This document shows positions 22,490 through 47,927 of a DNA stretch of 64,000 nt, one piece after another. Origin of the DNA: Candidatus Eremiobacterota bacterium (GTDB lineage Bacteria > Vulcanimicrobiota > Vulcanimicrobiia > Vulcanimicrobiales > Vulcanimicrobiaceae); contig JAFAYE010000001.1 in NCBI GenBank assembly GCA_019240525.1, positions 221,300 to 285,299 on the forward strand, in the 5' to 3' direction. A program made the translations under genes and the position numbers. Position 1 is the first letter of the stretch. Every line of letters begins with the position of its first letter. The notes beneath the pieces are model-generated. The model saw only the letters and a program-made list of their open reading frames with translations. It was not told the origin of the DNA and ran no database searches.

Positions 22490-22499
22490 AAGGGGAATC

Positions 22500-22661: not shown

Positions 22662-22724
22662 AACGCGAACCTTCAATCGCATACATCTAGCAACACTAAG
22701 CACACCACCAAATAAGGAGAAAAC

Positions 22725-22886
22725 ATGCTATCCACTCTTAATTCGATGATTCGCGACGAAGAAGGCGCAACGATGGTCGAGTATGGCCTGCTCGTTGCCC
22801 TCATCGCCCTGGTTGCGCTGGGCGCGGTCAAGACGATCGGTACCGGCCTGAGCACGCTCTTCGGCCAAGTCTCAAACTCGCTCTAA
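22725..22886 (+). CDS. flp: Flp family type IVb pilin (copy 2)
   Basis: 53-aa Flp prepilin paralogous to the one 64 bases upstream: leader MLSTLNSMIRDEEG, then ATMVEYGLLVALIALVALGAV with Glu19 and a short C-terminus ending SNSL. It has a stronger ribosome site (AAGGAG at seven bases) than copy 1 and is followed at once by the hairpin at 22901, as expected for a major subunit made in excess over the assembly proteins. Which copy is the major pilin cannot be read from sequence. Confidence 0.95.
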   Translation: MLSTLNSMIRDEEGATMVEYGLLVALIALVALGAVKTIGTGLSTLFGQVSNSL

Positions 22887-22900
22887 GGTCAACGCACGTA

Positions 22901-22956
22901 GGGTTGTGGGGCGCGAACGGCCGATGCGTTCGCGCCTCCCAACCCTTCCACTTTTT
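22901..22956 (+). terminator. Long hairpin plus T-run between pilin genes and assembly genes
   Basis: Arms 22901-22919 and 22927-22945 pair over 19 positions with one mismatch and one G-T, with a seven-base loop (GCCGATG), followed after a short spacer by TTTTT at 22952-22956. This is a strong intrinsic terminator shape. Because cpaA begins only six bases later and has no promoter of its own that I can see, it probably acts as a partial terminator (attenuator) that lets pilin mRNA exceed machinery mRNA, or as a 3' stabiliser. Confidence 0.82.
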
Positions 22957-22961
22957 CTGAC

Positions 22962-23471
22962 ATGACGATTGCAATTGCACTAACCCTGGCCGCCTGCGTG
23001 GCCGCAAGCTATACCGACGTGAGGGCGCGGCGCATTCCGAACGCGCTAACGGGTTCGCTTGCCGCCGCCGCGGCGATCGTTCACGCCTTCGGCGGGTGGC
23101 AGCAGCTGGTCGTCAGTCTCGGCGTCATGGCCCTGCTGACGATCGGCGGCGCGCTCATTTACTCTCGCGGCGGGATCGGCGGCGGCGACATCAAGTTGGC
23201 AATCGCCGCGTCCGGCATGCTGAGCTATCCGCTCTGCGTGCCCTTCCTACTCTATACCGCTCTTGCCGGCGGCGCACTAGCGGTGCTCTTTATCGCGCTG
23301 CGTCCCAACGAGCGACCCTCATTTTCACGCATCGCACTCACGACAATCGGCGCAACCAACGGCATCACGGCGCAGCGCGTTACGTTGCCCTACGCGGTGG
23401 CTTTTGCCGCCGGCGCGATCGTCGTCGCCCTATCGCAAAGCCTCCTCCCATTCTTGAGGATCAACCTGTAA
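22962..23471 (+). CDS. cpaA: Tad prepilin peptidase CpaA/TadV
   Basis: A 169-aa A24-family aspartic protease with about five or six membrane helices, the size of TadV-type peptidases lacking the methylase domain. The two catalytic aspartates are in YTDVRARRIPN (Asp19) and GGGDIKL (Asp76). It removes the leader from Flp and the TadE-like pseudopilins at the inner membrane. Starts at ATG 22962 directly after the T-run of the hairpin, so its translation may depend on readthrough. Confidence 0.92.
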   Translation: MTIAIALTLAACVAASYTDVRARRIPNALTGSLAAAAAIVHAFGGWQQLVVSLGVMALLTIGGALIYSRGGIGGGDIKLAIAASGMLSYPLCVPFLLYTALAGGALAVLFIALRPNERPSFSRIALTTIGATNGITAQRVTLPYAVAFAAGAIVVALSQSLLPFLRINL

Positions 23472-23481
23472 GGATAACTTC

Positions 23482-24345
23482 ATGAACGTTCGTCGCACTA
23501 CGTTTCTTATCGCGATGATCTTAGCAGTCGGTACCGGCTGGCTGACGTTAACCTATCTTTCCTCGCTTCGGCCGGTCGGCACCGCGCAGCGCCCCGTTTT
23601 GATCACAACTCAAGAGATTTCGGCTCGCGAGCGCATCAGCGAAGGAATGTTCAGCAAAGAGATGCGCCCGGCCGACACGTTGCAACCCGACGCCGTCGCC
23701 GACCCGAGCCAAGCCGTCGGCTCGCTCGCGCTCATCACGATTCCCGCCGGATCCCAGTTGACCGCGTCATCGATTGGAACGAACGTTTCGCTGGCATTGC
23801 CGGTGCGCCTCGAACCCGGAATGCGCGCGGTCAGTATTCCCGTCGACCGCGTCAAGGATGTTTCGGGCCTCGTTCAACCGGGTGACCGCGTTGACGTCAT
23901 TGCCATCCCGCCTTCGCGCAACAATGGTCCGCCGCCGCACGCAGTGACGATTTTCCGCGGCATACGCGTGCTCTCCGTCGGCGCGGCGCTCGAAAATCCG
24001 TCGGCGACGCCATCGCCGCAGGAGCAAGAAGCAACGACGGTCACCCTCGAAGTGACGCCGCACCAAGCCGACATGCTGGCGTGGGCCGATAGCAATACGA
24101 CGCTTCGGCTGGCGTTGCGCTCGCCGCGCGAAGCAATCCACACCGAACAAGCGGAAGATCTCACCTTCGAAATGGCGCCGCCGATGTCGCCGCCGGCGCC
24201 GCCGCCCGCTTTGCCGCCCGCCCCGATGGTTGCGATCGCCGCGACCCCGGCGCCGCGCATGCCGGCGGCGGCGACCGCACTCACCACGCCCGTCGAGTTA
24301 ATCGTCGGCGACCAGATTGTAGATCCCGGCAGTTCGAGCCGATGA
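23482..24345 (+). CDS. cpaB: Flp pilus assembly protein CpaB/RcpC
   Basis: A 287-aa protein with one N-terminal membrane helix (FLIAMILAVGTGWLTLTYL), a SAF domain (residues about 40-100, TQEISARERISEGMF), and the CpaB region with MRAVSIPVDRVKDVSGLVQPGDRVDVI near 115-140. A Pro-rich linker (PPMSPPAPPPALPP) precedes the C-terminus. CpaB spans the periplasm and links to the secretin. Stop overlaps the next gene's ATG (ATGA). Confidence 0.92.
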   Translation: MNVRRTTFLIAMILAVGTGWLTLTYLSSLRPVGTAQRPVLITTQEISARERISEGMFSKEMRPADTLQPDAVADPSQAVGSLALITIPAGSQLTASSIGTNVSLALPVRLEPGMRAVSIPVDRVKDVSGLVQPGDRVDVIAIPPSRNNGPPPHAVTIFRGIRVLSVGAALENPSATPSPQEQEATTVTLEVTPHQADMLAWADSNTTLRLALRSPREAIHTEQAEDLTFEMAPPMSPPAPPPALPPAPMVAIAATPAPRMPAAATALTTPVELIVGDQIVDPGSSSR

Positions 24346-26408
24346 ACGGCTCGCTCGTCGCGCTCTTCATCGGTTCGAAAGGGGGCGCCGGCGCGACGAC
24401 GCTCTGTTCGGAGCTGGCGCGCGCGATTCGCGGAAAACGCAACGTTGCGCTCGTCGATGCCGACCTCACCGGACGCCGCAGCGTGGCGGTCCTCTTCGAG
24501 GCGGTGCGCAATCTCGACGCGCAGCGCGTCAGCTCCCCCATTTCGCAGACCGCCGTCGACGGCGTTACTCTTTTCGAGCTTACCGACCGTTACGATTCCG
24601 TTTTTACCCTTGCCGTGGAAACGGTCGAAGCGTGCGCCAACGAGGCGACGCGATTCGACGCCGTGTTGGTCGACGCACCGCAGCCGTTTTCGGCGGCAGT
24701 CCGACCGTTCGTCGTGCGCACCACGCGCTTCTTCATCGTACTCGAACCCACATTGCTCGGCGTCGCCGGAGCCCAGGCAATGCTCGCCGACTTGCAGCGC
24801 TTCGGCGTGCCGCTGAGCCGGATCGCGCTGGTAAGCAACACGCGCAACGAACATGGCGGCGGCACGCGCAGCGAGATCGAGCGGGCGCTCGGAATGAAAA
24901 TCGTCGGCGAAGTGCCGCTTGCATCGTCACGCGGCTACTCCAAAGCGATCGCCGAGCTGAGCCGCCACGTTGAATCGCTTCATTCCGAAGAAGAGATTGC
25001 GACGCTGCAACCATCGACCTCATCGCCCATGGGCGACGCGCGTGTACCGCTGCGGCGCACCACGACGATGCGAACCAACGGACATAGCTCTGCACAGGCC
25101 GACCCCCGCGACTTACGCCGCGACGCGTTTAAGCAAGAAGTTCATCAGGCGCTTCTGCGCGAGCTCGACTTTGCTTCGGCCAGCATCTCGCAGAGCGACG
25201 CCGCGAAACTCGCCGAGCTCCGTTCCAAGATCGAAAGCATTACGGCGTCGCTCGTTTCGGCCCGGCGTTTCGACGGATCGGCCGAAGAGGTGGCGGAACT
25301 CCGTCAAGAGATCGTTGACGAAGCCCTCGGTCTCGGCCCGCTCGAAAGCCTCATGAAAGATCCCGACGTGTCGGAAATTATGGTCAACGGCTTCGATAAA
25401 ATTTACGTGGAGCGGCACGGCGTCATCGAGCGCACCCCCAAACGCTTCAGCGAAGAACGCCAGCTCCGGCTGATCATCGAACGGATCATTACGCCGCTCG
25501 GCCGGCGAATCGACGAGTCGTCGCCGATGGTCGACGCGCGCTTATCGGACGGATCTCGCGTGAACGCGATCATCGAGCCGGTCGCGATCGACGGCACGAC
25601 CTTGACGATTCGCCGGTTTGGACAACGCCGGCTGACCGCCGAAGATCTCATCAACATTGGCGCCGCCCCCCGGGCCGTCATCGATTTTCTCAGCGCCGCG
25701 GTGCAAGCCCGGCTCAACTGCGTGGTCAGCGGCGGCACCGGCTCGGGTAAAACGACCTTTCTCAACGTGCTTTCGTCGTTTTTGCCCGAGCGCGAGCGAA
25801 TCGTGACGATCGAAGATGCCGCTGAGCTCTTATTAAATCAGCCGCACGTCGTTCGGCTTGAATCGCGTCCGCCCAACGTCGAGGGGAGCGGTGAAATCCG
25901 CATTCGCGATCTCTTCCGCAACGCGCTGCGTATGCGGCCCGACCGGATTATTATCGGTGAGTGCCGCGGTGCCGAAGCGCTCGACATGCTCCAAGCCATG
26001 AACACCGGCCACGACGGCTCGCTCACGACGATTCATGCGAACAGCCAACGCGACGCGCTCTCCCGCATCGAGACGATGGTGTTGATGGCCGGCTTTGACT
26101 TGCCGGTGCGCGCCATTCGCGAGCAGATCGCCAGCGCACTGGATCTAGTCGTCCATACGGCTCGCCTTCGCGATGGCTCCCGAAAAGTTATCGGCGTGAG
26201 CGAAGTCGTCGGCATGGAAGGCGAGATCGTGACGATGCAGGAGATCATTCGATTCGCGCAGCGTGGCGTTGACAAAGAGGACCACGTTCTCGGAGACTTT
26301 TGTTACAGTGGCGTGCAGCCCGTCTGCCTGAAGCGTTTCCAAGAATACGGCATCGCCTACGATGCGCGTGAGTTGAGCCAGCTTTCTTCGATCGGGGCGC
26401 TATGGTAA
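24342..26408 (+). CDS. cpaEF: TadZ-TadA (CpaE-CpaF) fusion: localisation ATPase joined to pilus motor ATPase
   Basis: One 688-aa frame holds two proteins normally separate. Residues 1-230 are a MinD/ParA-like TadZ domain: deviant Walker [10 protein letters not shown] at 13-21, [12 protein letters not shown], and [10 protein letters not shown]. No receiver domain precedes it. A linker rich in Arg/Thr (about 230-255) leads to the TadA/CpaF type II/IV secretion ATPase: [21 protein letters not shown], Walker A GGTGSGKT at 464-471, [22 protein letters not shown] with Walker B, and [14 protein letters not shown]. TadA drives pilus extension at the inner membrane while TadZ places the machine at the pole. 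The reading frame is open across the junction with no internal start of note. Overlaps cpaB and tadB. Confidence 0.93.
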
Positions 26409-27265
26409 CGGCGTTCGTTCCATTGGCCATCTTTGCGGGAGTCTCCGCGACGGCGTTCTTCACGTTCTTTTCGTTTTGGGGCTCCGTCAATCAGCGCGCC
26501 ACGGCGCGCGTGCAGAGTCTGGCGGAACGACTGGATCGCGCCGGCGTCACGGTCGGGTCGCAGGAGCTCGTGCTGACGCTCGTTGCCGGTGTCACGATCG
26601 TCTGGATTTCGCTACTCTTGATGTTGCATACGGCGCCTCTGACGTCGATCGTGTTGCTGCCAATCGTGGCGGGCACCGCGACGTTTGGCTTCTACGGTTT
26701 TATCCAGTTTCGCATTGCCCGGCGCCTTGGCGCGTTCATCAACCAGCTCGAGCCCGCGACTCGCCTGATCGCCGGCGGTTTGCGGGTGGGCCTGGGCGTA
26801 CGCCAGTCGATGGCGGTCGTCATCGACGAGCTCTCGGAGCCGGCCCGGCACGAGTTTCGCCGCGTCATCGGCCACACCAATCTGGGAGCGAGCATTTTCG
26901 ATGCCGTCGATCACTTGGCGACGCGTATGCCGAGTCACGAAGCGTTGATGCTGGCGCGCGTCTTTCGCGTTCAATCCGAGACCGGCGGCGACCTCGCCCG
27001 CATCCTGGATCAACTAGCAGATACGATTAAAGACCGGCGGCAGGTGGGACGAAAGATTTCGTCGCTCACCGCTGAAGGCCGGATGAGCGCCTACGTGCTG
27101 ATGGCGATACCGCTGGCGCTCGGGCTATTCATCGTGACCACACAAGAAAACATGAGCACGGCGCTGCTCCACACGATGATCGGCCACATCGTAATTTTGA
27201 TCGTCCTCGCGCTCGAAGTCTTGGCGTATCTCTGGCTCAAAGCGCTCTTACGGATGGATGTATAG
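26402..27265 (+). CDS. tadB: Flp pilus inner-membrane platform protein TadB
   Basis: A 287-aa T2SSF-domain membrane protein. Two or three N-terminal helices precede the cytoplasmic platform domain with LEPATRLIAGGLRVGLGVRQSM, FRRVIGHTNLGASIFDAVDHLATRM and LARVFRVQSETGGDLARILDQLADTI, and a helix pair closes the C-terminus. TadB and TadC form the base that the TadA ATPase pushes on. Starts seven bases inside the fusion ATPase gene and its TAG shares one base with the GTG of tadC. Confidence 0.92.
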   Translation: MVTAFVPLAIFAGVSATAFFTFFSFWGSVNQRATARVQSLAERLDRAGVTVGSQELVLTLVAGVTIVWISLLLMLHTAPLTSIVLLPIVAGTATFGFYGFIQFRIARRLGAFINQLEPATRLIAGGLRVGLGVRQSMAVVIDELSEPARHEFRRVIGHTNLGASIFDAVDHLATRMPSHEALMLARVFRVQSETGGDLARILDQLADTIKDRRQVGRKISSLTAEGRMSAYVLMAIPLALGLFIVTTQENMSTALLHTMIGHIVILIVLALEVLAYLWLKALLRMDV

Positions 27266-28149
27266 TGCACTCGCTTATCGGAACCGCGTTCGGCTATCTG
27301 ATCGCCATGCTCGCCGGAGCGGCAGCCTTCTTCTTGACGTTCTCAATCATTCCGACGAAGAGTCCGCTCGCGGAACAACTCGAAGAGCTCAAGGCGCGCG
27401 ACCCTTTGAAACGCGACGAGGAGCGACTCTCGCTGATCGAACACGTTGTTTCCGGCGAGCGCCGCGCCGCGCTGGCCCGGCGTCTGGCCGAGGCCGGCTG
27501 GTACACGACCACGCCGGCAAAGTTTGGATTGCGCGTGGCCGGCGGTCTCTGTTTCGGAGTCGTCCTCGCGCTGCTCTGCTGGAAGTTTTTCGACCTGGGC
27601 AGCGGCTGGCTCATACCACTTTTGGGCGGCATGGGTTTTTGCGGCGCTTACGCGCCCTTCTTCTCGCTCAATCGGGCAGCGGATAAACGCAAAGCCGGCA
27701 TTCAAAAGAGTCTGCCGGAGTTTTTAGACATGGTCGCGTCGACCGTTCAAGCCGGTCTCGCCCTAAACTCGGCACTCGGCTATGCGGTGGAGGCCGTGCC
27801 CGGGCCGCTCGGTGATGAGGTCAAGGAAGCCCTCTCGCAAATTCGGCTGGGGAGAGCGCGCGCCGACGCCTTGCGCGCCGTGGGAGAACGCACGAATCAG
27901 CCCGCGTTGCGTAATGCGCTTCGGGTGATGATTCAAGCCGAGCGCCTCGGCGCCAACATTGCAAAGATGTTGAACGATTTAGCTGCCGATGCGCGCCACC
28001 AGCGCTTGATGCTCGTCGAAGAACTCGCTGCGAAGTTGCCGGTAAAGATGGTCTTCCCGATGGTCTTCTTCATGATTCCGGCGATCGTAACGATCATCTT
28101 CGGTGCAGTAGCGGCCAACTATTTCGCAGGTACAGCGGCAAACCCATGA
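27265..28149 (+). CDS. tadC: Flp pilus inner-membrane platform protein TadC
   Basis: A 294-aa T2SSF-domain protein. The cytoplasmic domain has QKSLPEFLDMVASTVQAGL and VMIQAERLGANIAKMLNDLAAD, and the C-terminus is KLPVKMVFPMVFFMIPAIV, all typical of TadC. It pairs with TadB. Start is GTG 27265 (one base shared with the tadB stop); the stop overlaps the next gene (ATGA). Confidence 0.92.
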   Translation: MHSLIGTAFGYLIAMLAGAAAFFLTFSIIPTKSPLAEQLEELKARDPLKRDEERLSLIEHVVSGERRAALARRLAEAGWYTTTPAKFGLRVAGGLCFGVVLALLCWKFFDLGSGWLIPLLGGMGFCGAYAPFFSLNRAADKRKAGIQKSLPEFLDMVASTVQAGLALNSALGYAVEAVPGPLGDEVKEALSQIRLGRARADALRAVGERTNQPALRNALRVMIQAERLGANIAKMLNDLAADARHQRLMLVEELAAKLPVKMVFPMVFFMIPAIVTIIFGAVAANYFAGTAANP

Positions 28150-28754
28150 TCGTCACGGCGGCCGCCGCCATTTTTTTTGGCGCGCTCGCGATCATGGGCG
28201 CGCTCGCCGGCCGCGCCATCTGCGCGGGCGTCGAACCGGCCGCTGACGGGCCCGCCACGGGGACGCCTCCGTACGCCGTGCTCGTTGTCGGCAGTGCGCT
28301 CATCGGTGGATTTTTGCTGGCGGCCAAGTTCACGCCGCTTGAAATCGGCATCGCGGCCATCGTGCTCTTCGCTTTGGTGGCGTGCTGGTGTACCGACGTC
28401 ATTTGCGGGATGGTTCCCGATGCGTTCACCTTGGTTCCGCTGGCTGCGTTGCTGCTCTTCTCCTTCGCTCAGCACGACTGGTGGATCGCGTTCTCGGCAG
28501 CGATTGCGTTCGCCCCCTTCGCCGTTGCAGCGTTGTTCACGCGCGGTTACGGCATGGGCTGGGGTGACGCCAAACTGGTCGCACTCTGCGGTGCCGCCTT
28601 GGGCGCGCCGGTTGCGGCCATGGCGCTCGCCGTCGCTTGCGCGGCGGCGGTGGTCGGCTACCGCCTGGCGGGGGCGGCACGATCGCCAATCGCCTTCGCA
28701 CCGTACATAGCGGCGGCGACCGCGGTCGCGTTACCACTCGGACTCGCGCACTGA
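28146..28754 (+). CDS. Second A24 prepilin peptidase in the Tad arm
   Basis: A 202-aa multi-pass membrane protein with both catalytic motifs of A24 peptidases: CTDVICGMVPD (Asp84) and GMGWGDAKLV (Asp141). It is more like the C-terminal peptidase part of PilD/TadV than like the CpaA at 22962, from which it is strongly diverged. There is no N-methylase domain with CxxC motifs. A second peptidase in one Tad locus may divide labour between Flp pilins and the TadE/TadG-like proteins; this is inference. Confidence 0.87.
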   Translation: MIVTAAAAIFFGALAIMGALAGRAICAGVEPAADGPATGTPPYAVLVVGSALIGGFLLAAKFTPLEIGIAAIVLFALVACWCTDVICGMVPDAFTLVPLAALLLFSFAQHDWWIAFSAAIAFAPFAVAALFTRGYGMGWGDAKLVALCGAALGAPVAAMALAVACAAAVVGYRLAGAARSPIAFAPYIAAATAVALPLGLAH

Positions 28755-28762
28755 CCGTTGCG

Positions 28763-31105
28763 ATGGCCAGGATCGCCGCGCTGACCGTCATTCTCCTGAG
28801 CGGCGCGCTGAGCACGATTTGGGTCTTTCGCGTTCCGATTTTTCAAGCGCCCGACGAGCCGGCGCATTTCGACTACGCGATCTCGCTCGCGAGCGCCGGC
28901 CGGCTCATCGGCTTGGGCGACGGTAAACCGGCGTGGATTGTCAGTCCGTACACGAAATATCTCATGCGCGCTTCCGATTTCGATCGCATCGTCTGGCGAA
29001 CGTCGATGCACGTCGCGCCCGATTACGGCACGCGGGCGTATTTCGCTCGCGCCGATGCGGCGGCGCCCAATGTGCGATCGTACGAATCGCCCAAAGGACG
29101 AATCAGCTACATTACCGCGCTCTATCCGTTCGGGTTCTATGGCCTCGAAGCGATTTGGATGCGCACCGTCGCGGCTTTGACCGGGTCGTTGACGGCAGTC
29201 TTCTTCTCGGCGCGAATACTCTGCGTTCTGCTAACGACGATCGGGCTCTATTTCAACTATCGCACCGCAATCAATCTCGGAGTTCCGCGGTGGACCAGCG
29301 TCGCGCTGACCGGCGCGATCGGTTTCTTTCCGCTGACCTCGTTCGTTGCATCGTACGTGCAGCCCGACAATCTCTCGTACGCACTGGTTTCGGCTGCGCT
29401 CTTCTTCACGACCGAACTCGGTCGCAGGGCTCGACTCTCCATTGTCACCGTGCTCGGTCTAGTGCTTGGCCTGCTCGCGGTGACGAAGGTTCAATTCTTC
29501 TTGAGCGCCGCGTTGCCGATCGCACTCTTCGTCCTGGTCCGACTGAAGCGGCTTGCGACGAATCTACGACAGCGCGTCCTTCTCTTTTCGCTCCTGCTGG
29601 CGCCGTCCGTTATTCTGCGGGTGGTACAGCACTCGATGGTCGACCGTGCCGGCGCGGCACTCGGCGCGGCAGCCCCGACGACGGTGAACCTCGAGTATTT
29701 CCGCAACGTCATGACCGGCGGTTTCGCGGCCACCTTAGGATACGCCGCATCCGAAACATTGCGCGCGCTCACCGACTTCCTTATTACCGGCGGCTCGGCC
29801 GCAACGTTCTGGCAGACGATCGGCTGGGTCGATACTCCGATCGTGATCGTCAATCCCGGCGTGGAGTTTTGGCTGCGCGCGGCCATCGGGCTGATCGGGC
29901 TCGCGGTCCTCGTTACGATCTGCGTGCGTCTGGCTCGAAACGGCGTCGCGCTACTCGCGCTGAGCTGGCGGGGCTACGCGCGATCGGCAATGCGCATCGC
30001 AACCGCCGATCCCGTGCTGAACAGCTACTTGTGCTTTGCCGCGCTCATGCTTGTCCTCTACGTCCTCTCGCACAACGTTTTTGGCGCAGAAGGCCGCCAC
30101 TGGTATCCGTACATTTTCCCGACGATGCTCTGCTTCGTTTGGTACGCGCCGCGCGCGTTGCGCAAGCGCCACCTTCGCATGAGCGCCGCGCTCGCGTGCG
30201 TTTTGCTGGCCTATTCACTCGTTGCGGCGGGCTACGCCCTGGCCGATCTCAACGCCCGTTACTACGGTCCGCAAACGGCGCGGTACGTGACGACCCTGCC
30301 CGAGCCATCGCGCGTTTCTGCAGATCCCGACGGAATTCTCTGGCCGATCCTCAGCGCCGATTATCACGTGAGCGACGGTTCGCCGCAGTTTGCTTATGTG
30401 CGCGGCTCAAGGCTGCTCGCCGACGGCTCGGCTCTGATGTTGGGGCTGAAAACCGTACCGTCGACGGTCGCGGTCGTGGTTGACTCGCGGATGCCCATGC
30501 CCGTCCTGGCCAACCAGTATCTCTATCCAATTGCCGAGGCGACGCACAGTTTGGCCTCCGGCTACAGCGGGTTTTACGCGCCGATTGACACGACGAACTT
30601 GAGCGAAGGCGCGCACAGCGTCCGAGCATACGCACTTATTCCAAATCAGCAACGATACGCGATCGTTCCGCCGACGCGCCTTTTCTTCATCACCGGGGAC
30701 GCCGGCAGATTCTCCCACGCCACGCTCCGTCAACTTCTCACCGCACGCTCCGTGCCGGGAAGCCTGAGAAACGACGGCAAGTGCCGCGGCGACGTCGCGC
30801 TCGTGGCCGGCCGGCTGGCGCGCCCGTCACCGCGCGTCTCGGCGATCTGGATTCTCGCCCAAGACCGGCCCTTTCCGGCGCGATATCGCCGATCCGACGG
30901 CTCGTTTACGGCAACGATTCCAAGCTCCGGCTTGAGCGGGGGCGTCGCGCGAATAACCGCATTTGCCATGCTCTCAGATTCGCTCAATTCACTTCGAATA
31001 GCTCAAAGCGCCGTTCTAGCTATCAACGAGTCCGATCGAGAGGCGCATGTTCTGCCACAGCGTCCGGCCGAATGCGACGATCCGTTGGCGGAGATGGCAC
31101 AATGA
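28763..31105 (+). CDS. DUF2142-family membrane protein, probable GT-C glycosyltransferase
   Basis: A 780-aa protein with about eleven membrane helices and a long exported C-terminal domain. The motif FQAPDEPAHFDYAI after the first helix is the DUF2142 signature, the acidic pair serving as the GT-C catalytic loop. LVMHVAPDYG and NNPFGAEGRHWYP-like segments follow (as seen: VFGAEGRHWYPY). The last 250 residues are beta-rich and extracytoplasmic. I chose ATG 28763; the frame is open further upstream, over the peptidase gene. DUF2142 proteins usually act in cell-surface polysaccharide assembly. It overlaps the next gene by four bases. Confidence 0.82.
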   Translation: MARIAALTVILLSGALSTIWVFRVPIFQAPDEPAHFDYAISLASAGRLIGLGDGKPAWIVSPYTKYLMRASDFDRIVWRTSMHVAPDYGTRAYFARADAAAPNVRSYESPKGRISYITALYPFGFYGLEAIWMRTVAALTGSLTAVFFSARILCVLLTTIGLYFNYRTAINLGVPRWTSVALTGAIGFFPLTSFVASYVQPDNLSYALVSAALFFTTELGRRARLSIVTVLGLVLGLLAVTKVQFFLSAALPIALFVLVRLKRLATNLRQRVLLFSLLLAPSVILRVVQHSMVDRAGAALGAAAPTTVNLEYFRNVMTGGFAATLGYAASETLRALTDFLITGGSAATFWQTIGWVDTPIVIVNPGVEFWLRAAIGLIGLAVLVTICVRLARNGVALLALSWRGYARSAMRIATADPVLNSYLCFAALMLVLYVLSHNVFGAEGRHWYPYIFPTMLCFVWYAPRALRKRHLRMSAALACVLLAYSLVAAGYALADLNARYYGPQTARYVTTLPEPSRVSADPDGILWPILSADYHVSDGSPQFAYVRGSRLLADGSALMLGLKTVPSTVAVVVDSRMPMPVLANQYLYPIAEATHSLASGYSGFYAPIDTTNLSEGAHSVRAYALIPNQQRYAIVPPTRLFFITGDAGRFSHATLRQLLTARSVPGSLRNDGKCRGDVALVAGRLARPSPRVSAIWILAQDRPFPARYRRSDGSFTATIPSSGLSGGVARITAFAMLSDSLNSLRIAQSAVLAINESDREAHVLPQRPAECDDPLAEMAQ

Positions 31106-31683
31106 AGCGGCCGGGTTTCTTGCGCGCGCTTGCGGGGGCCGCGCTCGCCGGGATGTCGCCTCGTGCTATCGCCGCCGCCGTGCCACGGAATAAATCCCGA
31201 ATGTTGTGGCTTCGCCATCAAGATGGCGACGAGGTCGTCGCACCATTCTGCGTTGACGGCCGAACCGTCTATCTTCCCGGCTACCAACGGATCTGCTGGC
31301 TATTGCGCGATCGACACGTGGACAGCTCGCAGGGATACGTTCGCTTTGACATCGTCGAAATCGAAGTGCTGTGGGAAGTCCAGCACGCGCTGGCGTTGCT
31401 CGGGGTGCTCAAACCACTGGTGATTACCAGCGGCTATCGCACCTTGCAGACAAATGAGGCGACCGAAGGCGCGGCTCGCAACAGCATGCATCTCTATGCA
31501 AAAGCCGCCGATATGTATGTGGACGGCGTTTCGACGCGCGACCTCTTCGACGTTTGCTGGTCGCGAGCGCTCGCCGGCGGCATGGGATACTACGACGATC
31601 ACGTCCACGTCGATTCTGGGACGCGGCGATGGTGGGTCGGCGAGGTCCCGATTCCGTCCTTCGAACCAAGCGAGCAAGGGTAG
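31102..31683 (+). CDS. YcbK/DUF882-like M15-type peptidase, exported
   Basis: A 193-aa protein with an N-terminal hydrophobic leader (ending near RAIAAAV) and a DUF882 peptidase fold related to D,D-carboxypeptidases. The zinc-site pattern is present: ITSGYRTLQTNE, then His130-x6-Asp137 (HLYAKAAD) and HVHVD (His167, His169). It probably trims peptidoglycan peptides in the periplasm. ATG 31102 overlaps the DUF2142 gene stop. Peptidoglycan opening near a pilus or glycan export locus would make sense, though that link is inference. Confidence 0.85.
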   Translation: MKRPGFLRALAGAALAGMSPRAIAAAVPRNKSRMLWLRHQDGDEVVAPFCVDGRTVYLPGYQRICWLLRDRHVDSSQGYVRFDIVEIEVLWEVQHALALLGVLKPLVITSGYRTLQTNEATEGAARNSMHLYAKAADMYVDGVSTRDLFDVCWSRALAGGMGYYDDHVHVDSGTRRWWVGEVPIPSFEPSEQG

Positions 31684-32785: not shown

Positions 32786-32796
32786 AGGGAGTGCGC

Positions 32797-33180
32797 TTGG
32801 CACCAATCATCATCGTCTGCCTCATCCTCACGGCCGTCTATGCCGGCACGAAGCGGCTTTCGGGTCTGCAAAGCCTGATCGTGCTTGCGGTCACCGCGCT
32901 TGGTATTCTGCTCGTCGTCTTTCCCAACGTCTCGACGCGAATCGCCAACATCTTCGGCGTGGGTCGCGGCGCCGATTTGGTACTCTACGTGGCGCTGGTC
33001 GGCGGCCTATTCGTTGCGTCGAATTTCTATTTTCGTTTCAAGCGCCATGAGTCGGTCTTGATTGCCTTAGCGCGGCAAAGCGCGATCGACCACGCGCACG
33101 ACCCGGGCACGACGTCGCCGGCGCGATCAGCGCCTGACGGCAAGCGAACCGTAGAGCAAATCGAGAAGGATTCTCACTGA
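32797..33180 (+). CDS. DUF2304 small membrane protein
   Basis: A 127-aa protein with three hydrophobic helices (APIIIVCLILTAVYAG; LIVLAVTALGILLVVFP; LVLYVALVGGLFVASNFYFRF) and a polar tail. DUF2304 proteins are frequently found beside GT2 enzymes and are thought to assist in lipid-linked sugar handling. TTG 32797 has AGAGGGA six bases upstream and is my choice; GTG 32791 would sit directly on that site. The 3' end overlaps the converging GT2 gene by 54 bases. Confidence 0.78.
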   Translation: MAPIIIVCLILTAVYAGTKRLSGLQSLIVLAVTALGILLVVFPNVSTRIANIFGVGRGADLVLYVALVGGLFVASNFYFRFKRHESVLIALARQSAIDHAHDPGTTSPARSAPDGKRTVEQIEKDSH

Positions 33181-33816
33181 CTCAAATCCCGATTGGCCTT
33201 TGCGCTTCGAATACTCCGTATAAGCAACGGTAACCGGAACTTCGACCAGCGTAAGCTTACGGTTGCCGATCTTTTGCAGTATCTCGGAGGCATGGGCCAT
33301 ACCGGGTTGCTCGATCTCGATCGCTTCCGCGGCGCGCCGTGTCAGCAGACGCAGACCGTTGTGAGTGTCGGTGATTTTGACGCGAGCATGCACGCGGGTA
33401 AAGATCAATGCGGCTTTGAGAAGCAGCCGTCGCGCCAACGGCATGGAGGCGTTCGCGTACAAAAACCGCGAGCCGACGGCAATGTCGGCACCGCTGCGCT
33501 GCAACTCGATGAGCAGATCGTCGATCGATCCGGCCGCGTGCTGCCCGTCGGCATCGAACGTGCAAATGTAATCTGCTCCGCGTGCCAGTGCGTAGCTGAT
33601 GCCCGTCTGAAGCGCCGCGCCCTGGCCGAGGTTGGTCACGTGATCGAGGACGTGCGCACCGCCGGCCCGCGCCAGTTGCGCGGTTTGGTCGGTCGACCCA
33701 TCGTTGACCACGCAGACCGTATCGTAGCCGAACCCGCGCAGCGAAGCGAGAACCGCAGAAATCGACGCGGCCTCATTGTACGCGGGAACGACGACCCACA
33801 GCTCGCGATTCTTCAC
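33127..33816 (-). CDS. DPM1-like family 2 glycosyltransferase (polyprenyl-phosphate sugar synthase type)
   Basis: A 229-aa GT2 enzyme: LWVVVPAYNEAASISAVLASL, VVNDGSTDQT, FDADGQHAAGSIDDL (DxD-like), and GSRF near 125. This is the dolichol-phosphate mannose synthase-like subgroup, which loads a sugar onto polyprenyl phosphate. It follows the doubled GT-C gene with a GTGA overlap (start GTG 33816), so it probably makes the lipid-linked donor used by that GT-C protein. The frame is open far upstream, but that part is the reverse side of the GT-C gene and was rejected. Confidence 0.9.
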   Translation of the reverse strand: MKNRELWVVVPAYNEAASISAVLASLRGFGYDTVCVVNDGSTDQTAQLARAGGAHVLDHVTNLGQGAALQTGISYALARGADYICTFDADGQHAAGSIDDLLIELQRSGADIAVGSRFLYANASMPLARRLLLKAALIFTRVHARVKITDTHNGLRLLTRRAAEAIEIEQPGMAHASEILQKIGNRKLTLVEVPVTVAYTEYSKRKGQSGFESVRILLDLLYGSLAVRR

Positions 33817-36623
33817 GCGCGTAACCCCGTTAACCGCAGTTGCGTCTCCGAGCGGGGTACCCGTTTGTGTCCGGCCAGCGCCACCGCCGGTACGACGAGC
33901 ATCAAAAGCCCAATCCAGGTCGGCAAGCGCAGAAGCCACATCGCCGGCCGGTTTGTCGAATTTCCTAGGACGAATTCGCGCCAGCCGGCCTCCGCCAGCC
34001 GCGGATCGATGGCAGGATAGACGTGCGCCATAACATGATGCGGCCACGGGACCGCCGCTGCGGCAAAGAGCGCTAGGATCGTGGCAAACGACGCGACCGC
34101 GGCGGCAAGCGCGATACCTCGCTCGCGGCGCCACAGCGTATAGGCGAGATACGCGGTCGGAAAAACGGGTGCGAGAAAGAGCGCCGCCGATGTCGCCATC
34201 ATCCAGGGAACCGCGAGCAGTACGACCGCGGCAAAGATCCAGGCACGGTATTCTCGCGCATACGCGAAGAGCAGGAGTGCGGCGGGAACCGCCGCGGCGA
34301 TCTCTCCCGTGTGCACGAACGAGCCTCCTATCAATGCAAACGCCGGTGGAACGAGCGCGATCATCGCGGGGGCGGCGAACTGCCGGGCGAGCCGCACGGC
34401 CACGACCACGCCCAGCACGGTCATGAGAGCATAGGAAAGACCGCCGAAAAATGCGGCGGAAGCGTCGGGAACGCCGAACGCGGCGACGACGCTCGACAGA
34501 CTGTATTGATTGTCGCGTGAAACCTCGGAAAGCGCGTGAGCCGGAATCACGTCGAAGAGGTATTCCACCGTCTGGGCAACGCCGGCGCTTGCAATGCAAA
34601 CGATACCGAGGAGCCCAAAACCGGCGAGCAGCGGCGTGCGTATCGGCGGATAACCCGCGAAAAGCGCGACGGCCGCCGGTAACGCGAGATGCGGCTCGAC
34701 CATCGCCATGACCATGGCGGCGGTGGCGAGCGCAACGCGGTTGTTCGCAACGGCATACGCCGCAAGCACGAGGGCGGCCACCGCGAGCGGCGCGACATTG
34801 CCCGCCGAGAACGACGTCAATCCGGCCGAGAGCGCAACGCCGGCCCAAGCGACGAGCCACGACTGTTTCGTTAGGCGCGCAAGCAACGACACCGCGATCG
34901 CGAGCGCTCCCAAAAGTACGGCCCACCAGGCGACCGCCGCCGCTTCGAACGGTAAGAACGTGAATGGCCTGAAAAATGCGAGGGCGTACGGCGGATAGGG
35001 TGACGGAACGGCCACGCCGGGCGGAGGACGGTAGTAGGGCGCCGCAGTGCGACTTTCACAGGCCGCCATCGGCCGGGCAAAATATGGATTGAGTCCGTCG
35101 CGCTGCGCCGACGCCGCGCAATAATATGCGCGCACGTCAATACCAAGGCGATCGCCGGCCGCGTCAGCATAAAATTGCGCGCCGATCGGTAGGAGCGTGC
35201 AGGCTATGCCTAGCGCAACCGCCGGAGAGATTGTAAGGCGAAAACGAAGCACATCGGCTTGCCGAAGCAACAATCCGAGCAAAAGCGCCAGGCCGCCCCA
35301 CGTCGGCAATCGCAGAAGCCATGCGGCCAGCGAGTCGGTGGAACTGCGCTGCGTAAAGCGGCTCCACGAGGCCTCGGCGAGACGCGCATCGATGGCTGCA
35401 GCGACGGTGTGGGCGCCGCCGTGCGGCACGACGATTGCGAGATCGCTAAGACCAAAGAGCAGCGCCGCGGTCGCAATCGCGGCAATCAGCAAGGCAACGC
35501 TACTGTGATTCCAATAGCGCCACGCCAGATATCCGACGGGCACGAGTGGCGCAACGATGAGCGCCGGCGAAATCGCCCAGACCCATGGTACGACGAGCAG
35601 GAGCAGGGCGATGATCGCAGCGACTCCCGTGGCCGGAGCTGCCGATCCGACGACTAACATCGCGGCCGGAACCGCGGCAGCGATCTGGGTGACGTGGATG
35701 AACGTGCCACCGAAAACGGCGAAGGCCGGCGGCACGCAGATCAAAAAAGCGTCGTTGCGCTTCTTCTTCGCGAGCGTTCCGGCGCACGCCACGCCGAGTG
35801 CTAGCATCGCGACGTACCACAAGGCTCCCGCGCGCATTGCGATCGATTGGGCCACGCCGAAGTGCGCAAGCACGGCTGTCAAACTCAGCTGCGTGTCTCT
35901 GCTCACTTCCGAGAGGGCGTGCGCGGGGAGCACGCCCGCGAAATATTCCGCGTTCACCGCCGGGCCCAATGCCGCGAGCGAAAGAGCGCTCAGGACCGCG
36001 GCGACGATTGCAAGCGGCCAGCGTGCCGCTGGTTGCCAAACCGCGAGCGCCAAACAGACCGGCAAACCGAGATGGGGCTCGATCATGGCGCCGCCCGCAA
36101 AGAGCGCGGCAAAGCGAAAATCGCCACGCCACGCAGAATAGGCGGCCGCACAAATGCAGCCAATTGCAAGCGGCACAATCTCTCCGAACGGAACGGAGAT
36201 TACGCCGAGGCAGAGTCCTAAAGCCGCGACCGTCACTTCCCACCGTTGACCGGCAAACCGCGCCAGCGCGCCGACGCAAATCAACCATGCCAGCACGAGC
36301 AATGCGGTCCAGAGCGTAGCGGCGACCGCGAACGGAAAGACTGCCAACGGCTCCAGGAGCGCAATCGCATAGCCGGGTAACGGCGCGGGAATCGCGACAC
36401 CGGGGTTTTTGTCGAAGAATGGCGTGGGGCCGATTGCGATTTCACATGAGTGCAGCGGCTCGACGCGATACGGGTCCGCGCCCGCGGCGGCGACCCGCGC
36501 CGCGCAATAGAACGCGCGAAAGTCGCCCATCAAAAAACCGGTGCGCGCAACAACACCGGTTTGTAAGACGAACGTCAACAGAGTTGCCGTAACGATGGCC
36601 GCACCGATCCAGCGGCTCCTCAC
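33813..36623 (-). CDS. Duplicated GT-C (GT87/DUF2029-like) membrane glycosyltransferase
   Basis: A 936-aa protein made of two homologous halves of about 460 residues. Both halves carry the acidic loop with DxRAxYCAA (GDFRAFYCAA; DVRAYYCAA), a PGVAxPxPxPxYA loop, an EPHLxLP segment, HALSEVSRD (seen twice, about 1390 bases apart), and a terminal AWLLRLPTW/MWLLRLPTW. Each half has nine or ten membrane helices. The halves have diverged strongly in DNA but keep these motifs, so the duplication is old. GT87 enzymes transfer sugars from polyprenyl-phosphate donors outside the membrane. Start GTG 36623 lies four bases after the regulator's stop; the DPM1-like gene follows with overlap. Confidence 0.85.
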   Translation of the reverse strand: MRSRWIGAAIVTATLLTFVLQTGVVARTGFLMGDFRAFYCAARVAAAGADPYRVEPLHSCEIAIGPTPFFDKNPGVAIPAPLPGYAIALLEPLAVFPFAVAATLWTALLVLAWLICVGALARFAGQRWEVTVAALGLCLGVISVPFGEIVPLAIGCICAAAYSAWRGDFRFAALFAGGAMIEPHLGLPVCLALAVWQPAARWPLAIVAAVLSALSLAALGPAVNAEYFAGVLPAHALSEVSRDTQLSLTAVLAHFGVAQSIAMRAGALWYVAMLALGVACAGTLAKKKRNDAFLICVPPAFAVFGGTFIHVTQIAAAVPAAMLVVGSAAPATGVAAIIALLLLVVPWVWAISPALIVAPLVPVGYLAWRYWNHSSVALLIAAIATAALLFGLSDLAIVVPHGGAHTVAAAIDARLAEASWSRFTQRSSTDSLAAWLLRLPTWGGLALLLGLLLRQADVLRFRLTISPAVALGIACTLLPIGAQFYADAAGDRLGIDVRAYYCAASAQRDGLNPYFARPMAACESRTAAPYYRPPPGVAVPSPYPPYALAFFRPFTFLPFEAAAVAWWAVLLGALAIAVSLLARLTKQSWLVAWAGVALSAGLTSFSAGNVAPLAVAALVLAAYAVANNRVALATAAMVMAMVEPHLALPAAVALFAGYPPIRTPLLAGFGLLGIVCIASAGVAQTVEYLFDVIPAHALSEVSRDNQYSLSSVVAAFGVPDASAAFFGGLSYALMTVLGVVVAVRLARQFAAPAMIALVPPAFALIGGSFVHTGEIAAAVPAALLLFAYAREYRAWIFAAVVLLAVPWMMATSAALFLAPVFPTAYLAYTLWRRERGIALAAAVASFATILALFAAAAVPWPHHVMAHVYPAIDPRLAEAGWREFVLGNSTNRPAMWLLRLPTWIGLLMLVVPAVALAGHKRVPRSETQLRLTGLRA

Positions 36624-36627
36624 GGGA

Positions 36628-38109
36628 TTACGTTCCCGAGACGAGGCGCAGGTTCGGCTTTTCGCCGGATTGACAATCGAGCGTCGACACGATTTCGGCG
36701 ATGCGATCGAGCACCATGACGTGGCGTTGCTTGAGTGCCACGTCGAGCGAAGCAACCCACGGTTCGTGGGCATCTCCGATGAGAAGATCGCCGCGATAAA
36801 CGCGAGCGGCGCTGCGGTAGTGGGCGTAAGCGGCCCGCAACTCGCCGCGATTGTACTGCTCGTCGGCATCGTTCGCGTGCGAAACGAAGCGATTGACGTC
36901 GACGATGACGTTATCGAGATCGATGGTCAGTTCGTCGCCGGCGCGAAAATACGCCTCAACGTCGTTAAAGCCGACGATATGCGCTATCGCTTTGCGAATG
37001 TTCGAGCAGGCGGTGCGCAAGCTCTGGGCGACAAGATGGCGTTCGGCGCCCGGCCAAAAGACTTGGCCGATCTCCGCGCGGGAAGCCGTGCCGTTGGGTT
37101 GCAGTGCGACATATTTGAAGATCTGCCGATCCCGCCGGCGCACCCATTCAATCGTTTGACGGTCGATTTCGGTGAGAAACCAGCCGAAGAGGCGTACCTG
37201 CATCGGCGTGACCGGCGCGACGCGCCGGCCATAGCGATCGTAGAGCCGGCTGCGGGAGAGCGCGCGCAACGGGCGATAGCCATCGGCAGTGTGGACGACG
37301 AAGAGTCCTTGTTCCTCGAGCGCCTGAAGCTGCGCGCGATCGTCCAGATACGATCCGCTCATCAGCTTGAGCACGAGATCGGCTTCGGGCTCGGCGACGT
37401 GCTTGAGCGATTCAGCGATAAATTCGTTGAACAAGTGCCCGTGGCGCGTGCGCCAGTGTTCGAAGGCTTGTGCGAGATTGCAGTTGTCTTCGGCTGCTTT
37501 ACGAAGCGCGCCGCTGACAACTTGCGGCCACCCGTCCGTCGCCTCGAGCATTCGAAGCACGTCCGTATGCGTGAACGGCACGCCGCACGTTTCCGCAACG
37601 TGCCGAATCCCGGCTGCGTCGAAGGCGAGCCGTTCGGCATCGCAGAGCACGGCCGTGCCGTCGGAAACGTAGTGACCGACGTGAAAAGCCGCGCGCGAAC
37701 GGCAGGCCAGCAAGAGCGAGACGTCTTCGGGCAGATCGTCGATGAGCGCCAGGATGCACTCGATGCCTCCGACATCGGGCGTATCCTCGCAGTCGAGCGC
37801 GAGCTCGAGGGGAGCGCGCGCGGAGAGTGTCTCGATGAGCTCGTCGTGCGTATTGAATTGAACTTCGAGCCCTAAAGCGCGCGCGATTGCGCCCCAAACG
37901 TTCTCGGATTTCGCCCCAGCGGAAACGACGCAATACGTGCCGTTCGTAGCGGAATGGCGCAAGTACCCAAGCAGCGCCATCGTCTTACCAAAACCGGGAG
38001 GAGCGACCAAAAACCGAACTGGAACGCTCTTAAAGCGTCCCAACCATTCTTCGAGGCCTTGGCGTCGAACGATCGACGGCCCAAGGCGGGGCATCATCCC
38101 TGAGCTCAT
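36628..38109 (-). CDS. ATPase regulator with winged-helix and BTAD domains (SARP-like)
   Basis: A 493-aa regulator. N-terminal STAND/MalT-like ATPase with P-loop APPGFGKT at 36-43 and a Walker B-type LALDCEDTPD region. Residues about 300-400 form an OmpR-type winged helix (APVTPMQVRLFGWFL; AEIGQVFWPGAERHLVAQSL), followed by a BTAD-like helical region (DVNRFVSHANDADEQYNRGELRAAYAHY). Such proteins activate the operon next to them in response to an unknown signal. It is the first gene of an operon with the doubled GT-C and DPM1-like genes, has the Shine-Dalgarno AGGA and lies downstream of a good promoter, so it likely controls its own operon. Confidence 0.85.
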   Translation of the reverse strand: MSSGMMPRLGPSIVRRQGLEEWLGRFKSVPVRFLVAPPGFGKTMALLGYLRHSATNGTYCVVSAGAKSENVWGAIARALGLEVQFNTHDELIETLSARAPLELALDCEDTPDVGGIECILALIDDLPEDVSLLLACRSRAAFHVGHYVSDGTAVLCDAERLAFDAAGIRHVAETCGVPFTHTDVLRMLEATDGWPQVVSGALRKAAEDNCNLAQAFEHWRTRHGHLFNEFIAESLKHVAEPEADLVLKLMSGSYLDDRAQLQALEEQGLFVVHTADGYRPLRALSRSRLYDRYGRRVAPVTPMQVRLFGWFLTEIDRQTIEWVRRRDRQIFKYVALQPNGTASRAEIGQVFWPGAERHLVAQSLRTACSNIRKAIAHIVGFNDVEAYFRAGDELTIDLDNVIVDVNRFVSHANDADEQYNRGELRAAYAHYRSAARVYRGDLLIGDAHEPWVASLDVALKQRHVMVLDRIAEIVSTLDCQSGEKPNLRLVSGT

Positions 38110-45021: not shown

Positions 45022-46503
45022 CTAGTATTCGTCAATGGGCTCGCGCGACGGGATATAATGGTGCGCGAAGTAGCTCATGGGATGCTGCGAGTAGCTGATC
45101 GGAATGAAGGGCCGAGGCGCCTGCGTGAAATCGAAGGAATCGATGATGCTGTTCGCGCGCACGTCTGACGTCCCCAGGCTTCCCAAACCCCAATTTTGTT
45201 CGATGAACTTGAGGACGCTGCCATCCTCGTATTGGGTATGTGAAATGTACCCCGGCTGGCTTGGAGTCGTTTCTTTGTCGTAGGCGGAAACGATCAGCAT
45301 CGGAATCCGTGGGCCGAGTCCCTGGCCATCGAGCTGCGGCGGAGGAACGTTGTCGTACTCCCCGCCCCACTCGTCCCAAACGACGATAATGACGGTTGAA
45401 GGCCAATAGGCGCTCTCGCCGATTGCATTAACGACCGACGCAACCCAATCGGGGCCATTATCGTGAGCCGGCCCCGGGTGATCCGACGTTCCCGCGTCGG
45501 GAATCACGTAGGTGACGCCGGGCAGCTGCGCGTTGGAAACGTACTGGAAAATATCGGTTTCGGGAACGATGATGTTGCTGGTCCATTCGGGCCCGTTGCG
45601 TACGGCATTGATCGCGTCGAACGCGTCCCAAACGTAACTCCGAGATGGATTGGTGAAATAGAGCCACGAGATTCCCTTGGCGTCCAGGAGATCGCGGATC
45701 GTTGAATAGCTAAAGCACGGATACGGCCCCTTGTCGCGCAAATAATTGCCGCTTTGGGTGACGAGGCTCGTCACTGTTCCGGGCGGCGCCGTGCATCCCC
45801 AATTCGATGGCGACGGAAAATCGATAACGTTATCGTTGCCGATCGGCGTGCCGCCGGCGATGAAGTCCTGGTGGGCGGTGAAACTGCTGCTGCCCTGAGT
45901 GGAAAACATGTGATCGGCCAAGACCCAGTCCTGTGCTATCTGCCAATAGGGCGCGATGTATTTCGGATCGACATACCGATACGGATACGTACCGGCCGGA
46001 ACTTTTTCGCCTTTGCGAAGCGCCCGCTCCACCTCGTTGAAACCGTCCATCCTTCCATTGTCGTACTCTTTGATAAACGAGAAGCGCTCGTGCCCCAGAC
46101 TATTCGAATCGAGTCCTGCTTCAGTGAGCGGCACGACCGTGTCGCCGGAGGGACATTGCGAACCCGACGGGCGGCGGCCACGTGCCGCGGGGCCTCCCGA
46201 TTTCATGCAGCCGTAGGTCGCCCCGACCGCACCGGGAAACGTCGCAAAAAAATCGTCAAACGAGCGATTCTCCTGTAAGACGATGACCACGTGTTGGATG
46301 TATGCCGAGCTGCTGCCCGAGCCGGTGTCGGAGCCGACGCCGGTTTTCAAACCGAGCGGGCCGGCGCCAGGCAGCGAGCCGACGCCAGGCGGCATGCCGG
46401 GGCCGTTCGATCCCGGCGAACCATTCGTGCCGGCGCACCCCGCGGCCAGTAGACCTGCGAACGCCGTGACGGCAAGAAGGTTCGTACGCGTTGCTCCAAC
46501 CAT
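45022..46503 (-). CDS. Phosphoesterase (PF04185) lipoprotein, array copy 5
   Basis: A 493-aa lipoprotein (lipobox LLAAGC, then Gly/Pro/Ser-rich linker) of the phospholipase C/acid phosphatase family. Motifs seen in all five array members: VVIVLQENRSFDDFF (Glu-Asn metal ligands), TQGSSSFTAHQDFI (candidate Ser nucleophile), VVWDEWGGEYDNVPPP and RIPMLIVSAYD, HTQYEDGSVLKFIEQ. WDE is exactly the AcpA form; the other copies have WDD. ATG 46503 has GAGGGAG upstream; the frame is open further to 46686 but that extension is unlike a signal peptide. Likely substrates are extracellular phosphomonoesters or phospholipids. Last gene of the array. Confidence 0.9.
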   Translation of the reverse strand: MVGATRTNLLAVTAFAGLLAAGCAGTNGSPGSNGPGMPPGVGSLPGAGPLGLKTGVGSDTGSGSSSAYIQHVVIVLQENRSFDDFFATFPGAVGATYGCMKSGGPAARGRRPSGSQCPSGDTVVPLTEAGLDSNSLGHERFSFIKEYDNGRMDGFNEVERALRKGEKVPAGTYPYRYVDPKYIAPYWQIAQDWVLADHMFSTQGSSSFTAHQDFIAGGTPIGNDNVIDFPSPSNWGCTAPPGTVTSLVTQSGNYLRDKGPYPCFSYSTIRDLLDAKGISWLYFTNPSRSYVWDAFDAINAVRNGPEWTSNIIVPETDIFQYVSNAQLPGVTYVIPDAGTSDHPGPAHDNGPDWVASVVNAIGESAYWPSTVIIVVWDEWGGEYDNVPPPQLDGQGLGPRIPMLIVSAYDKETTPSQPGYISHTQYEDGSVLKFIEQNWGLGSLGTSDVRANSIIDSFDFTQAPRPFIPISYSQHPMSYFAHHYIPSREPIDEY

Positions 46504-46574
46504 GTTCCACGCTCCCTCGTAACCAAATGCAACGCAGATATTAGGCTTGGTCCTCACGGAACCCCGCTCGCCGG

Positions 46575-47927
46575 CTACTGGTAGTCGGGCGCCTCGTACT
46601 CCGAGCTTTGGTGCATGAAGAAGCTCGGTGGTTTCGGCGCCTTGATCTTCACGAACGCGCGCGGCGATTGGGAGAAATCGAAGCAATCCCCAGCGGGAGA
46701 GTTCGCGCGGGCGTCGGCGGCTGCCAGTTGACCCAGCCCGAACAAATCTTCGGCGAACCGTAGGACGCTTGCCGTTTCGTATTGAGTGTGCGAAACGTAA
46801 TTCTGCTTTGCATACGGTGAGATCACGAGCAGGGGAACGCGAAAGCCGAGGCCGTCGTAGTCTTCAAAAGGCGGGGGTACCGGATCGTAAAGGCCGCCCC
46901 AATCGTCCCACTGCACGAAAATTGCCGTCGAGTTCCAAAACTTGCTCTGCCCAACCGTATTGACCAGCGCGGCGACCCATGACGGGCCGAAGCCGCCTGG
47001 GCAGTTGACGTGGTCGGAGTCGGAGCAGACTGGCGTGATCCAGGTAAAGTTCGAGAGCTTGCCCGCGCGCACGTCCGTGATGAACTTCCAGTTTGGCGAG
47101 ATCACCTTTTTCCAGTCGGGGCCGTTGTAAATGTGGTTGATGGCTTGATAGCTCGACCAATAGGCCCCATCGCCGCTCGATGCGCTTCCGTAGGCGCTCG
47201 CGTAGAAGCGCCAGGAGAGGTGCGCTTTGTCGAGCTCGTCCCCCAGCGTCTGGTAGTCATAGCATGGGACGATGTTTTTGCCGTAGGTTCGCTGTTGGGT
47301 GATCGTCGGAACGCTGTCGCCCGATTTTTGCGAGCACCCCCAGGCGCCGTACGGAAGATCCACGCTCGACGCCGCCTGCGCGGCGATGACGTACTGGTGG
47401 CTGACGAAACTCTCGTCGAGATGGGATTGGAACATTCGATCGCCGAGCACCCACTCGTGGGCCATGTCGAAATACGGCTTGGAATCCTTGTGCGGAACGT
47501 AGACGTATTCGGGATTAGTCACTGGGCCGCCGAAATTCTCTTCATTGTTGAAGCCGTCGTTGCGGCAGTCGGTTCCGGGGAGGCTGCCGGTTCCGCGGCA
47601 TGCTGCAAACATCGCCGCCGCCGAATGATCGATGACGTATTGATCCGACAACGGCACCGGGCGCAGTATGATGGTCTTACCGTGCGAATCTTTGCCCCTT
47701 TTCACCGTGAAAGCGCCCGGATACCCGTAAAACATGTCGTTGAAGCTGCGGTTTTCTTGAACGATGTAAACGACGTGCGTAATTTTGCCGGCACCGCTTC
47801 CGCTGAGCGATCGCAGCGGCGCGCCGTTCTGCATATACGGCAATGAAGACGAGGCGCCGGCCGAACATCCGGCCAGCGCAACGACGATCGCTGCGAAAGA
47901 CATGCAGCGGACGAGCGAAAGATTCAC
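46575..47927 (-). CDS. Phosphoesterase (PF04185) lipoprotein, array copy 4 (most diverged)
   Basis: A 450-aa lipoprotein with lipobox VALAGC. Family motifs: [26 protein letters not shown] in place of the usual GSFTAHQ, FVQWDDWGGLYDPVPPP, RVPLLVISPYAKQ and HTQYETASVLRFAED. It also has its own insertions (NNEENFGGP and PHKDSKPYFDMAHE). The active-site residues appear intact despite divergence, so a different substrate is likely. It lies between copies 3 and 5 in the same orientation. Confidence 0.9.
   Translation of the reverse strand: MNLSLVRCMSFAAIVVALAGCSAGASSSLPYMQNGAPLRSLSGSGAGKITHVVYIVQENRSFNDMFYGYPGAFTVKRGKDSHGKTIILRPVPLSDQYVIDHSAAAMFAACRGTGSLPGTDCRNDGFNNEENFGGPVTNPEYVYVPHKDSKPYFDMAHEWVLGDRMFQSHLDESFVSHQYVIAAQAASSVDLPYGAWGCSQKSGDSVPTITQQRTYGKNIVPCYDYQTLGDELDKAHLSWRFYASAYGSASSGDGAYWSSYQAINHIYNGPDWKKVISPNWKFITDVRAGKLSNFTWITPVCSDSDHVNCPGGFGPSWVAALVNTVGQSKFWNSTAIFVQWDDWGGLYDPVPPPFEDYDGLGFRVPLLVISPYAKQNYVSHTQYETASVLRFAEDLFGLGQLAAADARANSPAGDCFDFSQSPRAFVKIKAPKPPSFFMHQSSEYEAPDYQ

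Follow-up and report, generated by a model that had tools for sequence, protein, structure and literature searches.

The gene at 33813-36623 (minus strand) of the window, i.e. the whole stretch of 64,000 nucleotides analysed here, encodes a doubled GT87 (GT-C) glycosyltransferase of 936 residues. It arose when two paralogous genes lying in tandem were fused, a point missed by an earlier, sequence-only reading of the same DNA; of the two events, the duplication is ancient and the fusion recent. The host belongs to Eremiobacterota, an uncultured phylum, and the carriers of the gene are some soil bacteria. The GT87 family itself was already known; what is new is the fused pair. The same two membrane glycosyltransferases have been both joined and separated by nature within one genus, and their two active sites differ, in a fixed manner, at sites that matter in PimE.

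The doubled gene and its two halves

The gene starts with a GTG at 36623 and stops with a TGA at 33813-33815. A 1018-residue frame returned by the ORF finder was rejected: its start is unlikely, and it overruns the upstream gene, whose TAA is 4 nt ahead of the GTG. The N half (residues 1-460; 35244-36623, minus strand) was recognized as a GT87 unit using AF2 and Foldseek, and the C half (residues 461-936; 33816-35243, minus strand) by its identity to the N half and its match to PF09594. At the junction, around RQADVLRFRLTISP (35215-35280, minus strand), the last helix of the N half leads into the first helix of the C half. In split relatives, a stop and a start are found at the matching site.

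The internal duplication that had been claimed from the letters was borne out, and it spans the full length of the halves. Comparison of the halves with BLASTP gave a single alignment of 417 residues (42% identity, 54% positives, 3 gap positions, E = 7e-70). Their Smith-Waterman score was 780, and 200 shuffles fell far below it (mean 73, SD 13, maximum 123). The shared motifs were also located: HALSEVSRD starts at residue 235 in the N half and 696 in the C half, and (A/M)WLLRLPTW lies near residues 435 and 896. The resulting offset of 461-462 residues agrees with the spacing of about 460 given earlier. At the DNA level, the halves share only short stretches of similarity, and the duplication is thus considered ancient.

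Assignment to GT87 and the GT-C class was likewise upheld: the N-half model has the GT-C fold (see below), and both halves exceed the curated Pfam cut-off of 25 bits for GT87 (PF09594, formerly DUF2029), with 37.5 bits for the N half and 42.8 bits for the C half. The whole protein scores 52.8 bits. Both halves thus qualify for the family, and the window protein differs from it in having two units per chain. Six GT87 matches were found in the 2.8-Mb host genome, two of which are the halves of the doubled protein. A further, single GT87 gene at 11363-12472 (minus strand) of the window lacks the DFRAFYC motif seen in the subfamily of the pair.

Fused and split pairs in Eremiobacterota

Orthologs were sought in 60 relatives and then in 149 genomes of the phylum. 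The pair was found in 13 genomes, 12 from one genus and one (G029) from another genus of the same family. It forms one open frame in seven of these (G000, G016, G006, G008, G002, G013, and G005; the G006 contig stops inside the C half) and two adjacent genes in the other six. The junctions of the latter were as follows: in G007, a TAA is directly followed by an in-frame ATG; in G009, TAA and GTG are separated by one base; in G003, G014, and G010 (the last an assembly with gaps), TAG and GTG are separated by two bases; and in G029 the two genes are in different frames. With the genes still separate in 6/13 genomes, function cannot depend on their being one chain.

When fused, N-only, and C-only sequences were aligned together, the C-only rows fell on the N half; the halves were therefore aligned separately. 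In a tree of 62 units that included the 13 genomes, the N halves and the C halves formed two clades with 100/100 support. The gene was thus duplicated before any fusion, and its copies were passed on as a tandem pair. A second tree, built from the N half, the C half, the regulator, and a neighbouring GT2, was used for the constraint analysis. Forcing the fused genomes into one clade was rejected (p-AU 0.014; lnL 32.8 lower); support within the nine-genome clade was 87-100, i.e. partly moderate. As the fused genomes are not one clade and the outgroups are split, either at least two fusions or one fusion with a later split must have occurred.

The same search of 149 genomes revealed no doubled GT87 elsewhere in the phylum, and no plasmid-borne relative of the pair was found. 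Unfused tandem GT87 pairs (same strand, within about 160 bases) occur in the phylum tables at more than 20 further places, e.g. G000:C1:18346-21029, G037:C49:10242-12949, and G035:C14:34251-36928. According to the tree, these derive from several separate duplications; among the tandem GT87 pairs in the phylum, only the window-type pair was found fused. A literature search on doubled or fused GT-C proteins yielded nothing relevant.

The coexistence of fused and split states points to the two units being partners, either physically or within a pathway, and the species concerned offer a ready system for asking what covalent linkage does for GT-C enzymes.

Fold and comparison with PimE

GT-C enzymes such as PimE take up their donors, polyprenyl-phosphate sugars, at the membrane's outer face, and an acidic base serves in the transfer. 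To our knowledge, few members of GT87 besides PimE have been characterised.

The AF2 model of the N half, computed from 17 sequences, has a GT-C fold (pLDDT 86.5, pTM 0.90). Its top match in the PDB was PimE, the mycobacterial PPM-dependent alpha-1,2-mannosyltransferase (PDB 9dm5 and 9dm7), with a Foldseek E-value of 5.8e-6, a probability of 1.00, and TM-scores of 0.54/0.64. Other GT-C or GT-C-like folds, namely ArnT, PIGU, ALG9, PglB, EmbB, and Pmt, followed with weak E-values, amid unrelated transporters of low probability. At the sequence level, phmmer with the whole protein found no match among PDB sequences, nor did the canonical GT87 of G008 when tried as an intermediate on the way to PimE. 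A profile built from the halves was required, for which PimE was the sole significant match (E = 5e-4). Membership of the C half in the GT-C class would follow from its 42% identity to the N half. A full-length AF2 model from six rows was poor (pLDDT 56, pTM 0.46) and was left unused for the packing of the halves.

PimE and the halves have in common the GT-C-A fold and an acidic base on the first outer loop, and their P-x-P and G-x-x-x-P regions align. They differ in that PimE is one unit of 415 residues whereas the window protein has two, in sequence (14-17% identity), and in the conserved cysteine pair (C40 and C60) of the units compared here.

Active-site residues of the two halves

The N half carries D34 (in GDFRAFYC), E148, E182, H235, Q245, and H310; the C half carries D496 (in IDVRAYYC), N609, E643, H696, Q706, and H771. 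Among rows with sequence at the position, the catalytic aspartate is present in 13/13 of the N clade (D34) and 12/12 of the C clade (D496). Comparison of the catalytic acids thus found the aspartate kept on both sides, and neither half lacks the catalytic loop. Just past this aspartate comes a cysteine pair (C40/C60 and C502/C522) that essentially all of the 62 units share; it may be bridged by a disulphide within the first outer loop. In close species, dN/dS (NG86) was 0.14-0.19 for the N half and 0.11-0.20 for the C half; by this codon-level measure, both halves are under purifying selection, and neither shows decay.

The base of PimE is D58, and replacing D58, Y62, Y92, Q163, K195, or W319 with alanine abolishes its activity (PMC12041525). 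In the profile alignment, Y92 corresponds to L82 (N) and Y543 (C), and Q163 to E148 (N) and N609 (C). This alignment begins at PimE residue 79; hence, Y62 was placed on F38 (N) and Y500 (C) by its spacing from D58 only. The equivalents of Y62/Y92/Q163 are therefore F/L/E in the N half and Y/Y/N in the C half. Only twelve columns discriminate N from C, each clade being at least 90% fixed there for its own residue, and three of them are these very equivalents. The overlap with PimE-inactivating positions has a hypergeometric P of 3e-4, a post hoc value in which Y62 is placed by spacing only. Unfused members of the family mostly have F, L, and Q/E at the three positions, which makes the C half the one that has changed: F38 and L82 match the wider family, and Y500, Y543, and N609 are derived states. 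In GT87, these three positions may determine which donor or acceptor is used.

The lysine that binds the donor phosphate in PimE (K195; K195A is inactive, PMC12041525) has no equivalent in either half in the profile alignment, in which the region (M180/E182) reads M-I/V-E-P-H/Q. The donor site must therefore differ from that of PimE. Our guess is that R201/R662, invariant in both clades, could stand in for the lysine.

Gene neighbourhood

The upstream gene (36628-38109, minus strand) encodes a BTAD/SARP-type regulator, which probably forms one transcription unit with the doubled GT87 gene and is kept beside the pair in 13/13 genomes. In G003, G014, and G010, the regulator and the pair are separated by an oppositely oriented peptidase M15 gene (L059 5166-5768, L060 7821-8438, and L063 2567-3091, respectively); the M15 gene of the window is elsewhere, at 30781-31683.

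Downstream of the pair, a GT2 gene of the polyprenyl-phosphate-sugar synthase type (33127-33816, minus strand) starts with a GTG at 33816 that overlaps the GT87 stop (GTGA). Its best NCBIfam model is PpgS (NF058614), at 214.9 bits, which is below the equivalog cut-off of 370. A GT2 of this kind follows the pair in G000, G016, and G013. In G005, G009, and G008, the GT2 is of a different subtype, weakly related to polyprenyl-phosphate-sugar synthases (AglJ/PpgS models), and in G008 it comes after a third GT87. In G014, the gene next downstream of the pair is a convergent acyltransferase and not a GT2; in G029, an acyltransferase, identified by sequence likeness only, takes the place of the GT2. 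Convergent with the GT2 of the window is a gene for a small DUF2304 protein (32791-33180, plus strand), and DUF2304 and a related GT2 are also adjacent in G031 (L066). Past the regulator are two GT4 genes and another GT2. This region of the window is a glycan-assembly locus.

The arrangement resembles the mycobacterial galactosamine pathway of PpgS, Rv3632, and Rv3779 (PMC9671496) in that a GT2 closest to PpgS has a small-protein gene and a GT-C enzyme beside it, which together are the parts for polyprenyl-phosphate-sugar transfer. It differs from that pathway in the sub-equivalog score of the GT2, and arabinogalactan is not expected in the window host.

Also next to glycosyltransferases is an 822-residue protein with many hydrophobic stretches (28637-31105, plus strand), for which no Pfam or NCBIfam match was found. 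An ortholog is near the pair in G016, and a partial one in G013.

Proposed function and alternatives

With moderate confidence, we regard the product as a covalently joined, outward-facing pair of polyprenyl-phosphate-sugar-dependent transferases that have different specificities and serve one glycan. An old duplication gave a unit of two adjacent genes, which later became a single gene in some members of one Eremiobacterota genus. Each half would bind a polyprenyl-phosphate sugar at the outer face of the inner membrane, a donor suggested by the GT2 neighbour and the fold and probably supplied by the co-encoded GT2, and the conserved aspartate of each would act as the base for sugar transfer. 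The N half may keep the usual specificity of the family, and donor or acceptor specificity may be altered in the C half (Y500/Y543/N609). As an obligate pair, the halves would act in turn on one glycan, either secreted or of the cell envelope, the split genes giving a heterodimer and the fused gene a pseudo-heterodimer.

The sequence-only reading had suggested that two donors or two acceptors could be used in one step. As judged from the residues, fixed N/C differences in two intact sites fit two donors or acceptors; the concerted action is unsupported. A more specific version, which we put forward tentatively as possible but doubtful, is that one polypeptide with two complete GT-C active sites of differing specificity adds two different sugars successively to a single acceptor, lipid-linked or polymeric, that it does not release in between, i.e. 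that it is a membrane-embedded bifunctional transferase derived from a fused obligate heterodimer. Yeast Pmt1 and Pmt2 are paralogous GT-C units that function together, and a Pmt structure (6p25) was among the structural matches of the N-half model. The likeness lies in the pairing of paralogous GT-C units; Pmt1-Pmt2, however, are separate chains of GT39, and the pairing proposed here derives from the tandem genes and the fusion only.

Only one half might be catalytic, the other being a partner that positions the acceptor or holds a complex together, as PIGU does in the GPI transamidase. GT-C folds are known as non-catalytic subunits (PMC12041525), PIGU is among the structural matches, and the C half departs from the family type at three positions on which PimE activity depends (Y500 for F, Y543 for L, and N609 for Q/E). 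We nevertheless consider this unlikely: the C half retains the aspartate, E643, R662, H696, Q706, H771, and W881, the two halves have equally low dN/dS values, and Y500 and Y543 are PimE's own residues. A duplication for dosage, or for a homodimer-like assembly in which both halves catalyse the same reaction, would suit halves that are 42% identical and share a neighbourhood. It is quite improbable, given that the N and C clades are old and separate, with fixed differences in the presumed active site. Moreover, no N unit falls among the C units of the tree or vice versa, and gene conversion between the halves is thus not visible.

That the fusion, as distinct from the pair, is evolutionary noise, a stop having been lost between tightly packed genes, is a serious possibility that falls somewhat short of probable, and it is compatible with the joined transferase pair preferred above. 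Stop and start are only 0-2 nt apart in four split relatives whose junction is clean, so that small changes suffice to fuse the genes, and fused and split genomes are intermingled in the tree. Against it, the fused state is retained with open frames in seven species, and it arose at least two times or was lost once. The joining of two genes by an assembly error or frameshift has a negligible probability. The relatives are mostly metagenome assemblies, but the linker is in frame in all fused genomes, and the halves of the other fused proteins are 51-65% identical to those of the window, without stops. Since the fusion is common to seven genomes of different species, an artefact was rejected.

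Other features of the window

Four neighbouring paralogues of an acid phosphatase/phospholipase C phosphoesterase family are encoded on the minus strand (45022-46686, 47970-49481, 49490-50992, and 50989-52521); their scores against NCBIfam TIGR03397 and TIGR03396 are below the cut-offs. A Tad/Flp pilus locus (17785-28754) comprises genes for a secretin, RcpC, a T2SSE ATPase, two T2SSF proteins, and TadE/G-like proteins, and it includes two prepilin peptidase genes. Two adjacent squalene/phytoene synthase genes are located at 3116-4837 (minus strand), an arrangement known from hopanoid precursor synthesis.
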